Shown here: positions 14,149 to 63,643 of the stretch, in pieces | Layout: each line of letters opens with the position of its first letter | How positions within the stretch are numbered: the first letter of the stretch is position 1 | Assembly (NCBI RefSeq): GCF_003352165.1 | Contig: NZ_CP029176.1 | Span: forward strand, 2,728,001-2,792,000 | Direction of reading: 5' to 3' | Source of the DNA: Acidibrevibacterium fodinaquatile | GTDB taxonomy: Bacteria > Pseudomonadota > Alphaproteobacteria > Acetobacterales > Acetobacteraceae | Length of the DNA stretch: 64,000 bases | Notes under the pieces: generated by a model | The model's database searches: none | What the model saw: the letters and a program-made list of their open reading frames with translations, nothing else | What the model was told of the DNA's origin: nothing | Translations under genes and position numbers: made by a program

Positions 14149-15933
14149 ATGACCCTCCGCGCCGTCATCTACGCTCGCTATTCCTCCGACAACCAGCGCG
14201 ACGCATCCATCGAAGACCAGTTGGAAGTCTGCCGCCGCTACATCGCGCGCCAGGGCTGGACCCTGACCACCACCTATGAGGACCGCGCGCAGAGCGGCGC
14301 CAGCCGGTTTCGTCCCGATTTCCAGCGCCTGCTCGCCGATGCCGAGGCGCGGCGCTTCGATGTCGTCGTCGCCGAGGCCATCGACCGGCTCGGGCGCAAG
14401 CTCGCCGATGTCGCCGATTTCTTCGACCGCCTGACCTTTTATGGCGTCAAGCTGCACGTCACCAACAGCGGCGAGGTGACGCCGATGCATGTCGGGGTGA
14501 TGGGCATGATGGCGCAGATGTATCTCTCCGACCTCCGCGACAAAACCCGGCGCGGCCAGCTCGGCCGGGCGCGGGCGGGACGGGTGCCGGGCGGCATCGC
14601 CTATGGCTACGCCGTCGTGCCCGGGGATGCCTCCGGCGCTGGCGCGCGTCGCATCAACGAGGCCGAGGCGGCCATCGTGCGGCGGATTTTCCGTGACTAC
14701 GCCGCCGGCAAATCGGCCCGCACCATCGCCCATGAGCTGAACGCCGAAGCCGTGCCCGGCCCCGAAGGCCGCCCGTGGGGCGATACCACCATTCGCGGCC
14801 AGCTCGACCGCGGCACCGGCATTCTCAACAACACGCTTTATATCGGCGAGCTGAGCTGGAATCGCTGCTCGTATGTGAAGGACCCGCGCACCGGCAAGCG
14901 CCTTGCCCGGGTCAATCCGCGCGAGCAATGGGAGGTGGTGGCGGTGCCGGAGCTGCGCATCATCGACCAGCCGCTTTGGGATGCGGTGCGGGCACGCCAG
15001 CAGGCGGCGCGTTACGCGGTATGTCATGACGAGGGCTCCGGCAACGCCCTCAACCGCGCCCATCGTCGCGAATTCCTGCTGAGCGGGGTTTTGGTCTGCG
15101 GCTGTTGTGGTGGCGGGTATACGATTATTGGCAAGGACCGCTATGGCTGTGCGGCCCGGCGCAGCAAGGGCACGTGCGACAACGCGGTGACCATCACCCG
15201 CCAGCGGCTGGAGGCGCGGGTTCTCGGCGGGCTCCGGGAACATATGCTGACGCCGGCGCTGGTGGCGGAATTTGTCACCGCGTTCACCGAGAGCCTTGCC
15301 GAGCTGCAGCGCGACGACGCGATGCGCGAGCGGCGGGTGAAGGACGCGCTGGCCGCCATCGAGCGCAAGCTCGATGGCGTGGTGCGGGCGATTGAGGACG
15401 GCGAGTGGAATGACACGCTGCGCCGCCGGCTCGGCACGCTGGAGGCGGAGAAGGCCTCGCTGACGGCGGAGCTGGCGGCGCTTTCCAAGCCTGCGCCGCC
15501 GGCGCGGCTGCATCCGCAGGCGGCGGAGATTTACCGGCGCAAGGTGGCGGTGCTGGAACAATGCCTGAACGAGCCCGACATTCGCCATGAGGCGGGCGAG
15601 GCGTTGCGGCAGATGATTGAGAAGGTGGTGCTGACGCCGGATGCGACCGCGCCGGATGGCCTGGCGGCGGCGCTGCATGGTGATTTGGCGGTGATTTTGA
15701 CCCAGGCGATGGCGCCGGAACGCGAACGCCGGCCGCTCCCAAACGGGGCACAAACCCCGCCAGGAACGGCCGTTTCCGGGAGTCTACTATCGGTGGTTGC
15801 GGGGGAGCGCTGCCACTTATACCGAACACGCCTCCGCCTCACCGCAAGGCCGCAGAACAAAACGGCAATCCGCCCGCGTAAGAATGGCGGCCTAGTGGCC
15901 TTCCCAGCCTCGGTCGCACGCCCGGCGGGCTGA
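14149..15933 (+). CDS. Large serine recombinase, copy 1
   Basis: A 594-aa protein. Residues 1-150 are the resolvase catalytic domain with the nucleophile Ser12 in YARYSSDNQ and the AEAIDRLGRKLADV block; then the Recombinase domain (GIAYGYAVV, EAAIVRRIFRDYAAGKSARTIA, GPEGRPWGDTTIRG), a zinc ribbon (CGCCGG...CAARRSKGTC) and a coiled coil. It would integrate and excise the element. Its N-terminal domain clearly differs from copies 2 and 3. Near the C-terminus the gene contains GTGGTTGCGGGGG (VVAG), then reads HLYRTRLRLTA. The final frame extends through possible att-flank DNA, so the true C-terminus in the circular form may differ. Confidence 0.92.
   Translation: MTLRAVIYARYSSDNQRDASIEDQLEVCRRYIARQGWTLTTTYEDRAQSGASRFRPDFQRLLADAEARRFDVVVAEAIDRLGRKLADVADFFDRLTFYGVKLHVTNSGEVTPMHVGVMGMMAQMYLSDLRDKTRRGQLGRARAGRVPGGIAYGYAVVPGDASGAGARRINEAEAAIVRRIFRDYAAGKSARTIAHELNAEAVPGPEGRPWGDTTIRGQLDRGTGILNNTLYIGELSWNRCSYVKDPRTGKRLARVNPREQWEVVAVPELRIIDQPLWDAVRARQQAARYAVCHDEGSGNALNRAHRREFLLSGVLVCGCCGGGYTIIGKDRYGCAARRSKGTCDNAVTITRQRLEARVLGGLREHMLTPALVAEFVTAFTESLAELQRDDAMRERRVKDALAAIERKLDGVVRAIEDGEWNDTLRRRLGTLEAEKASLTAELAALSKPAPPARLHPQAAEIYRRKVAVLEQCLNEPDIRHEAGEALRQMIEKVVLTPDATAPDGLAAALHGDLAVILTQAMAPERERRPLPNGAQTPPGTAVSGSLLSVVAGERCHLYRTRLRLTARPQNKTAIRPRKNGGLVAFPASVARPAG
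15793..15805. other. Putative attachment core GTGGTTGCGGGGG, copy 1
   Basis: The 13-bp sequence is identical to the 3' end of tRNA-fMet (63599-63611) and to 37121-37133, each time inside the 3' end of a serine recombinase gene. Homology between elements changes here. Confidence 0.55.
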
Positions 15934-15984
15934 ATGTGTCTGCCCTGCGCCAAGCGCGACGGCGACCCGCGCCACATCATGCCA

Positions 15985-61873: not shown

Positions 61874-61948
61874 GCCGGGAGAAAAATTCTTGACCGCCGC
61901 GCCCGGCCCCGCCCATCGTTCCCATTCCCGCCGCTTGGAACCACGCCC

Positions 61949-63643
61949 ATGACCCTCCGCGCCGTCATCTACGCCCGCTATTCCTCCGACAACCAGCGCG
62001 AGGCGTCCATCGAGGACCAGTTGCGCCTATGCAAGGAACGCCTCGTCCGCGAGGGCTGGGAACTGGTGCAGGTCTATCGTGATGCCGCGCTCAGCGGCGC
62101 CTCGACGCTGCGCCCGGGTTATCAGGCGCTGCTCGAAAGCGCGCGCGAGGCCGCCTTCGACGTCGTCGTCGCCGAAGCCCTCGACCGCCTCTCGCGCGAC
62201 CAGGAAGACGTCGCCGGTCTGTTCAAGCGGCTCAAATTCGCCGGTATCCGCCTCGTCACCCTCGCCGAGGGCGAGATTTCCGAACTCCATGTCGGCCTCA
62301 AGGGCACGATGAACGCCCTCTTTCTCAAAGACCTCGCCGATAAGACCCGCCGCGGCCTGCGCGGGCGGGTCGCCGCCGGGCGCTCGGCCGGCGGGCTCTG
62401 CTATGGCTATGACATCGCCCGCCAGCTCGACCCCAATGGCGAGCCGGTGCGCGGCGCCCGCAGTATCAACGAGGCCGAGGCTTCCGTTGTGCGCCGCATC
62501 TTCACCCTCTTTGCCGGCGGCGCCAGCCCGATTGCCATCGCCAAGACGCTGAACGCCGAAGGCGTGCCCGGCCCCGAGGGGCGCGCCTGGCGCGATACCA
62601 CCATCCGCGGCCATGCCGGGCGCGGCACCGGCATCCTGCGCAATGAACTCTATATCGGCCGGCTGGTGTGGAACCGCATGCGCTTCCTCAAAGACCCGGC
62701 GACCGGGAAAAGGGTGTCGCGGCCGAATCCGCGTGCCGAGTGGGTTATCGAGACCGTGCCGGAATTGCGCATCATCGACCAGGAAACCTGGGAGCGGGCT
62801 GCCGAGCGGCTCGGCGCCATTCGCGCCGCCTCGCGGGCCGACACGCTGCCGCCCGGGTTCTGGGCGCGCCGCCGGCCGCGGCATGTGCTGACCGGAAAAA
62901 TCTTCTGCGGCGACTGCGGCGGCGCTTTCGGCGCCATCGGTCGCGATTATCTCGGCTGCACCGCCGCCCATCGCCAGGGGGTCTGTGCCAACCACGGAAC
63001 CGTCAGGCGCGATGCACTGGAAGACCTGATTCTCGGGGCGTTGCGCGAGCAGCTCATGGCGCCAGAACTGGTGGCGGAATTCGTTGCCGAATTCGCCGCC
63101 GAGTGGAACCGGCTGCAAGCCGAGGCCGGGGTCGAGGCGGCCAATCTGCGCAAGGAGCTGGCCGCGGTCGAGCGCAAGCTCGCCGGGCTGATTGACGCGA
63201 TTGCCGAGGGGTTCCGAGCGCCGGGGCTGCAACAGCAGCTCGATGACCTGGAAGCGCGCAAGGCGGGTCTGGCCCGGCAACTGGCGCAGGCCACCCCGGC
63301 GATGCCGCGGCTGCATCCCAATCTCGGCGAAATCTATCGCGCCAAGGTCGCGGCGCTGGCCGAGGCCTTGACGGGCCCGGATGGGCAGGAGGCTTTGGAG
63401 ATGGTGCGTGGCCTGGTGGCGCGGGTCGAGGTGCTGCCTCCCGCGGCGGCGGGCGAGGCGCCGGAGATTGTGCTCACCGGCGAGATTGCTGCGATGGTCG
63501 GGCTTGGCCTTGGGCAAGCGCCGACGCGCCCCGGTGCAGGGGCGACGCCAGGCGCCGTTGCCGGCGCTGGTTCCGATTTGTTTACGAGTTCGGTAAAAGT
63601 GGTTGCGGGGGCACGATTTGAACGTGCGACCTTCAGGTTATGA
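61949..63643 (+). CDS. Large serine recombinase, copy 3, C-terminus encoded by antisense tRNA-fMet
   Basis: 564 aa. Catalytic Ser12 in YARYSSDNQ, AEALDRLSRDQEDV, Recombinase domain, zinc ribbon CGDCGG...CTAAHRQGVC and coiled coil as in copy 2. The last 15 codons (VVAGARFERATFRL) lie on the opposite strand of tRNA-fMet (63600-63676); an ending of the FERATFRL kind is known from integrases sitting in tRNA genes. This shows that the attachment site is the tRNA 3' end and that integration supplies the present stop codon. Confidence 0.93.
   Translation: MTLRAVIYARYSSDNQREASIEDQLRLCKERLVREGWELVQVYRDAALSGASTLRPGYQALLESAREAAFDVVVAEALDRLSRDQEDVAGLFKRLKFAGIRLVTLAEGEISELHVGLKGTMNALFLKDLADKTRRGLRGRVAAGRSAGGLCYGYDIARQLDPNGEPVRGARSINEAEASVVRRIFTLFAGGASPIAIAKTLNAEGVPGPEGRAWRDTTIRGHAGRGTGILRNELYIGRLVWNRMRFLKDPATGKRVSRPNPRAEWVIETVPELRIIDQETWERAAERLGAIRAASRADTLPPGFWARRRPRHVLTGKIFCGDCGGAFGAIGRDYLGCTAAHRQGVCANHGTVRRDALEDLILGALREQLMAPELVAEFVAEFAAEWNRLQAEAGVEAANLRKELAAVERKLAGLIDAIAEGFRAPGLQQQLDDLEARKAGLARQLAQATPAMPRLHPNLGEIYRAKVAALAEALTGPDGQEALEMVRGLVARVEVLPPAAAGEAPEIVLTGEIAAMVGLGLGQAPTRPGAGATPGAVAGAGSDLFTSSVKVVAGARFERATFRL
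63599..63613. other. Attachment core GTGGTTGCGGGGGCA in tRNA-fMet
   Basis: Left of it is element DNA identical to copy 2 (TTCGGTAAAA), right of it the rest of the tRNA gene. The tRNA remains complete after integration because the core restores its 3' end and CCA. Confidence 0.7.

Follow-up and report, generated by a model that had tools for sequence, protein, structure and literature searches.

How can several elements come to stand in a row at one target gene if the recombinases that insert them work in one direction only? The question is raised by a 64,000-nucleotide stretch of the Acidibrevibacterium fodinaquatile genome (NZ_CP029176.1, positions 2,728,001 to 2,792,000, forward strand; hereafter the window, whose positions are counted from its first letter), in which three islands, each ending in a gene for a large serine recombinase (LSR), lead up to the initiator tRNA gene, tRNA-fMet. 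The reaction of serine integrases is attP x attB; unless a partner factor is present, they carry out neither attL x attR nor other pairings (PMC3783163; this and the other papers are cited from parts of their text), so arrays at a single target need explaining. We consider it very probable that the array arose by successive insertion of probable integrative mobilizable elements (IMEs) at the 3′ end of tRNA-fMet, by a site-specific group of LSRs. The site, the att arms, the target and the recurrence are read from the DNA; activity, transfer, the order of events and the rule for attR proposed below are what we infer.

Results

The Core Recurs at LSR Gene Ends and at tRNA-fMet

The 13-mer GTGGTTGCGGGGG is present on the plus strand of the window at 15793, 37121, and 63599, exact in each case, as an earlier note made from the sequence had reported. 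When exact matches were counted over the whole 4.04-Mb genome, six were found, against one for the reversed 13-mer used as a control. All six sit at the end of an LSR gene or of a remnant of one; the three outside the window (minus strand, genome positions 1510204, 1531671, and 1550805) form a second array. The constant 11 bp, TGGTTGCGGGG, read CCCCGCA-A-CCA on the tRNA strand, i.e., the acceptor 3′ strand, the discriminator base, and the CCA of tRNA-fMet. ARAGORN and Rfam place this gene at 63600–63676 on the minus strand, which confirms the third copy as the tRNA 3′ end; the G at 63599 falls just outside. The same note had put every copy in the last codons of an LSR gene. Each does lie near the 3′ end of such a gene, but the wording is loose for copy 1, since core 1 ends about 43 codons ahead of the stop of its LSR gene (14149–15933). 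LSR copies 2 and 3 are, as had been noticed, alike up to the core and unrelated after it: they are identical across 36899–37135, and their DNA is 98.1% alike over 3,048 bp (34088–37135). The features of the array are as follows.

9304–12513, minus: Ti-type conjugative relaxase TraA (MOBQ) of island 1; TIGR02768, 874 bits (cut-off 590); Pfam MobA_MobL, AAA_30
14149–15933, plus: LSR of island 1, type beta; Resolvase, Recombinase, Zn_ribbon_recom
15794–15804, plus: core 1 (TGGTTGCGGGG), island 1/island 2 junction; arms unlike, 8/17 mirror positions
15805–37121: island 2, alpha type (core-to-core interval); IS elements present
15809–15832, plus: att arm at the left end of island 2; mirror of the alpha LSR end, 13/17
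35471–37177, plus: LSR of island 2, type alpha; Resolvase, Recombinase, Zn_ribbon_recom; 97% identical to copy 3
37122–37132, plus: core 2, island 2/island 3 junction; arms unlike, 5/17
37133–63599: island 3, probable chimera; left end and relaxase region of beta type, LSR end of alpha type; end arms 5/17
37137–37160, plus: att arm at the left end of island 3, of beta type; in array A this arm is the mirror of the beta LSR end, 12/17
55537–58635, minus: TraA_Ti relaxase of island 3; TIGR02768, 876 bits
61949–63643, plus: LSR of island 3, type alpha; last codons and stop inside antisense tRNA-fMet
63600–63610, plus: core 3 at attR; acceptor 3′ strand, discriminator, and CCA of tRNA-fMet
63600–63676, minus: tRNA-fMet (CAT), target gene, intact (ARAGORN; Rfam)
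63707–63821, minus: 5S rRNA (Rfam), the sole 5S detected in the genome

Most Island Ends Mirror Each Other and Most Junction Arms Differ

Accretion predicts that the left arm of an island mirrors the arm at its own LSR end and that the two arms meeting at a junction differ. We scored 17 positions outside the core. Twelve islands gave 12, 13, 13, 5, 12, 7, 12, 15, 9, 12, 12, and 15, and 11 junctions, those between units of arrays with ends in hand, gave 5, 7, 5, 8, 5, 3, 7, 7, 4, 4, and 10. The ends thus mirror each other in 10 of 12 islands (permutation P = 5e-5, 1 in 20,000 shuffles) and the arms are unlike at 10 of 11 junctions. The idea was formed on this genome and on G257, a genome of another genus; the independent cases are G014, G066, G128, G218, G241, and G249, and their six islands score 12, 15, 9, 12, 12, and 15. 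Mirrored ends together with unlike junction arms point to accretion of different elements, as predicted; judged by their arms, the array junctions are hybrids of two different elements, and island ends match. A reading of the internal junctions as like-with-like (alpha/alpha, beta/beta) was rejected when the mirrored-arm comparison showed the opposite.

Attachment Sites Occur in Filled and Empty Form

The attP sites of LSRs are usually short, about 50 bp, and have inverted symmetry. Symmetry of this type appears here in the mirrored ends of the islands and in a register test on 29 chosen sites (19 of the 22 loci with a core and no tRNA described below, 8 of the 12 LSR-ending palindromic loci, and two window sites), where the arm match was 0.404 in register and 0.185–0.313 at nine other shifts. 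The palindromic pattern TGGTTGCGGGGNNNNGCAACC, with at most one mismatch allowed, was found at 98 sites in 58 of 299 family genomes, compared with 3 for the reversed pattern. When 30 of these loci were sorted by eye, 12 were LSR-ending, 6 had a terminator-like flank without an LSR, and 12 were remnants, contig ends, or unrelated.

Genome G128 contains both filled and empty sites. Its attL (2031862) consists of a terminator, the core, and GCGCGCAACC; its attR (2050287, same contig) of an LSR, the core, and the tRNA, and the island between them measures 18.4 kb. Two other rrn copies are empty and have a closely similar terminator followed by the core and the tRNA. Together with the hybrid junctions and the mostly matching island ends, these sites bear out the earlier proposal that the islands are core-bounded units with the LSR on the tRNA-proximal side. 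Empty sites therefore exist in the group, and insertion has left tRNA-fMet intact in the window (ARAGORN). Seven site/tRNA pairs were fetched and judged by eye; the LSR abuts the tRNA in three of them (G128, G218, and G257).

A Group of LSRs Ends in the Initiator tRNA

Among the best 80 of 572 confirmed relatives, a sample in which matches via the tRNA-encoded tail may be favoured, 46 LSR loci terminate in tRNA-fMet or a piece thereof: 34 in a complete or near-complete gene, 9 in a piece of 40–69 nt, and 3 in a tRNA at a contig end. A further 22 have a core without a tRNA by the cut-off used, including L099, whose contig ends in a tRNA-like stretch, and L133, with a 27-nt tRNA piece; 12 are coreless by pattern, the contig ending at the LSR in 4 of them. 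Acetobacter, Gluconobacter, Paracoccus, Bradyrhizobium, Mesorhizobium, Sphingobium, and Thalassospira are represented in the 80. Like these LSR relatives, an Rfam match to mmgR points to an alphaproteobacterial genome. The protein tail GFEPx[TA]FRL is found in 46/46 tRNA-ending LSRs, and the core is read in the same frame in all 45 that fit the core pattern; the LSR C terminus therefore appears to be read from the antisense tRNA after integration. On the evidence of these gene ends, this is an LSR group, spread over several alphaproteobacterial orders, that is dedicated to the initiator tRNA.

A close LSR is present in 71 of the 299 family genomes, and at least 7 of the 71 (G000, G014, G030, G066, G241, G249, and G257, read by eye) carry at least two copies on the same strand within 100 kb; at most four candidates were scored per genome, and the counts are lower bounds. 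Ordered arrays, held by the earlier note to be rare for LSRs, are thus not so in this group. In the three-LSR array of G257, the LSR genes share a strand and end at 2235285, 2266747, and, at tRNA-fMet, 2287879, and copies 2 and 3 are 100% identical over 1,864 bp.

The Island Probably Brings Its Own Terminator

On the tRNA strand, the 60 bp ahead of the core fold strongly (z < -1.5) in 40 of 45 tRNA-ending LSR genes, against 9 of 45 for a control stretch 100 bp further up, and several of these hairpins show a stem followed by a T-run. Given this enrichment, the island probably supplies a substitute for the displaced rrn terminator. Base 12 lies beside the dyad centre; site and tRNA have the same base there in 44 of 52 pairs. 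These pairs come from 27 of the 58 genomes, each represented by a single tRNA locus; the remaining 31 offered no tRNA locus for comparison, except G080, G210, and G262, whose sites are altered in the core and were left out. One G107 site (C at base 12, probably a chance match) was likewise dropped. The agreement only suggests that base 12 may be part of a crossover or central-dinucleotide match.

Contents of the Islands and a Probable Chimera

All three LSRs of the window have an N-terminal Resolvase domain, then Recombinase, then Zn_ribbon_recom. Identity is 97% between the two alpha copies and 48% between beta and alpha. The alpha pair is separated by 8, 3, and 27 substitutions at codon positions 1, 2, and 3; since the differences are mostly at third positions, selection on the LSR protein is suggested. 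The 463-aa open reading frame (ORF) that precedes LSR 2 is not taken to be a gene: it has no family match, its mismatches between copies are spread over the codon positions (7, 9, 7), and tblastn gave no match at 1e-5 among the 80 LSR loci. A TraA_Ti relaxase above the cut-off is found in islands 1 and 3, and on this ground the elements are read as mobilizable and as probable IMEs. The family search returned no relaxase match in island 2, and no secretion-system families in the scanned ORFs of the window, a scan outside which 46847–51691 lay.

Island 3 is 96% alike to island 1 over 56297–59479 and 98% alike to island 2 over 60566–63613, and is probably a recombinant rather than a simple third insertion. 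The two low-scoring islands in the mirror test, island 3 and the last island of G257, both combine a beta-like left end with an alpha LSR nearly or fully identical to that of the neighbour. The simplest account would be a former beta-alpha-beta-alpha array whose middle was deleted by recombination between shared backbones. Near-identical inverted copies of an IS21-like element lie in island 2 (19516–21943) and island 3 (39144–41572). The cargo of island 3 (42693–54703, partly of low G+C) includes glycosyltransferase, GDP-mannose dehydratase-like, and methyltransferase genes.

The second array of this genome (G000:C1:1510204-1550817, L016–L018, minus strand) has three LSR ends, one a remnant and one split into two frames. 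Its att arms are unlike at the junctions, and TraA relaxase matches are present. The two arrays of this genome, A and B, are not mutually independent, because related elements are common to both. Genus mate G001 is 95% alike to the flank of array A over 828 bp; since the adjacent genes are only 76% alike, this link was discounted as probably due to a mobile element.

Variant LSR Ends in Other Genomes

At L059:6705-8138, L069, L084, L096, L112, and L122, the LSR gene is followed by about 45 nt of the tRNA-fMet 3′ half and then directly by a tyrosine integrase gene. Seven of the nine short-tRNA loci were scanned (all except L085 and L137): six contain Phage_integrase (L069 and L122 being near-duplicates), and in the seventh, L066, an ORF further away has a Resolvase domain. 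The same tRNA-fMet seems to be split at these loci by an island of a second kind. Six genomes have paired cores 66 bp apart at LSR ends (L278, L282, L302, L305, L312, and G218:C3:511967-512033), which seem to be a micro-island fixed as an in-frame extension of the LSR. At L279, GGTATTGCGGGG stands at the tRNA, so this tRNA-fMet gene has no encoded CCA; L128, where the tRNA match starts at the fourth base and the LSR tail is GIAG, perhaps resembles it. Two plasmids typed as conjugative carry such LSR genes, one ending in a tRNA-fMet gene (pKvSKV1, L276:4149-4225), the other in a tRNA-fMet piece (a Bradyrhizobium plasmid, L275). A related LSR of Rhizobium phage RR1-A (L274, 38% identity) ends in VVAG codons with TGGTAGCGGGAG and is perhaps aimed at another tRNA 3′ end.

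Discussion

We propose that each LSR gene ends across its own attP, a dyad of ~50 bp made of TGGTTGC, an 8-bp spacer starting GGGG, GCAACCA, and mirrored outer arms. Because the left half of attP is a copy of the tRNA 3′ end, recombination would restore the tRNA, and it would give the LSR a new C terminus encoded by the antisense tRNA. With the island there would usually come a terminator-like hairpin that stands in for the displaced rrn terminator. Elements arriving later would enter between the LSR end and the tRNA, creating hybrid junctions, and homologous recombination between shared backbones would produce chimeras such as island 3.

Neighbours in the arrays examined have unlike att arms, which suggests that an LSR would reject its own attR and may accept a foreign one; a foreign attR, whose tRNA half and core have stayed intact, could for that reason serve as attB. 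From this follows a tentative idea, to which we give somewhat less than an even chance: att-type incompatibility would order the array, an attR of the element's own kind being unusable and an unlike attR acting as a fresh attB, so that stacked islands tend to alternate. Part of this reading is also that the same few bases would serve as the coding end of the recombinase, as half of attP, and as the tRNA 3′ end, the rrn terminator lying in the adjoining arm.

Several observations weigh against accretion at tRNA-fMet or its ordering. Two islands have unlike ends (island 3, 5/17; the last of G257, 7/17), and one junction (G241) scores 10, above the lowest symmetric island (G128, 9). Among 48 further LSR-end sites without a tRNA and of undecided status, 16 score at least 9; six of the 48 are first cores of the 66-bp pairs (5 of these 6 score at least 9), and without them 11 of 42 do so, 6 of the 11 having one common arm type. 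These symmetric sites may be free attP or like-with-like junctions; they weaken alternation as a general rule and leave a strict unlike-neighbour rule unproven. In four of the seven fetched pairs (G030, G071, G089, and G151) the tRNA lacks an adjacent LSR. At base 12, site and tRNA differ in 8 of the 52 pairs and also in G151, which is outside the 52. The hairpin of the window itself is a weak one (-19.3, where shuffled sequences average -15.4, sd 2.7), and no tRNA was found in the 78 kb surrounding the second array. Finally, the earlier note had advised comparing the tRNA-fMet/rrn flanks of related genomes. Genus mates G001, G002, and G003 all share an ABC-transporter gene that ends at 5002, and synteny breaks at 5003, a break that does not account for the left edge of the array; because each continues differently from there, they yielded no empty site for this locus. 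The empty sites seen are those of G128.

The sharpest challenge to repeated insertion is that array growth was due to homologous recombination, or to unequal crossing-over, between LSR genes and not to the LSR itself. Copies 2 and 3 are indeed 98% identical over 3,048 bp, the last two copies of G257 are fully identical over 1,864 bp, and both island 3 and its counterpart in G257 differ between their two ends. Such growth would leave unexplained, however, the tRNA-terminated LSR genes of many genera, an attL that carries the rrn terminator, and empty paralogues, and adjoining LSRs are just about 49% identical. We regard this origin as unlikely and think that homologous recombination probably acted later, producing chimeras. 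Much less probable still is a single insertion of a composite element in which the internal cores are intact attP sites within LSR genes and were never junctions. In two of three comparisons of array A with array B the likeness past the core stops near the LSR stop codon, as though the gene merely came to its end there, and some LSR-end sites elsewhere resemble an intact symmetric attP; yet the five internal cores of this genome are asymmetric (5, 5, 5, 7, and 8 of 17), and the ends match in three of its four core-to-core intervals (12, 13, and 13; the fourth, island 3, scores 5). That the 13-mer is merely conserved LSR coding sequence and its overlap with the tRNA a coincidence is hardly credible. 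The LSR genes of this group do use the core as coding sequence, but the 46 of the best 80 loci that run into tRNA-fMet or a piece of it speak against coincidence, as do attL-like sites that have the core without an LSR and the alternation of tRNA and att arm past the core. The earlier note would have taken a core found only as ordinary coding sequence in non-integrated recombinase genes as a refutation; this was a false choice, as the core is both coding sequence and att site.

Successive insertion by LSRs at one gene presumably has a counterpart in the composite SCC/SCCmec islands, in which Ccr recombinases leave tandem arrays at the 3′ end of a single target gene. The SCC target is rlmH, and here it is tRNA-fMet. 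CcrA, CcrB, and CcrC match the window LSRs far below their NCBIfam cut-offs (best 93 bits, CcrB, cut-off 900), and identity with SCC elements was rejected on both recombinase type and target. Well-studied cases of site-specific accretion use tyrosine integrases. In the accretion of integrative and conjugative elements (ICEs) and cis-mobilizable elements, a new element likewise enters the attR beside the target, giving tandem arrays with decayed members, and tandem accretion is also described for IMEs in general (PMC5704250). Serine-recombinase IMEs such as Tn4451 share with the islands a serine recombinase, chromosomal insertion, a relaxase, and short end repeats; those covered in the same source are from Firmicutes and insert inside genes or with low specificity, whereas the islands are in Alphaproteobacteria, at the 3′ end of a tRNA-fMet that is restored.

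Among the matches listed, the nearest described case is phage phiPam-6 of Paracoccus aminophilus (PMC3925955, PMC6536676), which has a serine recombinase, a predicted tRNA-Met target, and a 17-bp repeat whose sequence corresponds to a tRNA 3′ end, CCA included. Its core ends CCGCTACCAT, that of the islands CCCCGCAACCA, and it is a phage and a single case, with no array, family, or gene overlap in the text covered. At S. meliloti hot spots, the integrases reported at tRNA genes are of the tyrosine type, one case being ambiguous (PMC11476347), and in Mesorhizobium five IMEs and one ICE with serine recombinases are counted among 79 elements (PMC8627217). The TIGER/Islander databases named in PMC12884075 may hold such islands. 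Titles and abstract openings of the matches listed gave no earlier description of an LSR group at tRNA-fMet.

In the published pattern, as far as the excerpts go, tyrosine integrases are associated with tRNA genes (PMC11476347) and site-specific serine-recombinase IMEs with sites inside genes (PMC5704250); the group described here would differ from both. Its att sites are legible from sequence alone, offering many natural LSR/att pairs for a nearly universal target. The arrays would provide a concrete test case for how directional serine integrases still stack elements at one site, and the LSR ends a case in which a target RNA gene would encode the end of the enzyme that attacks it.

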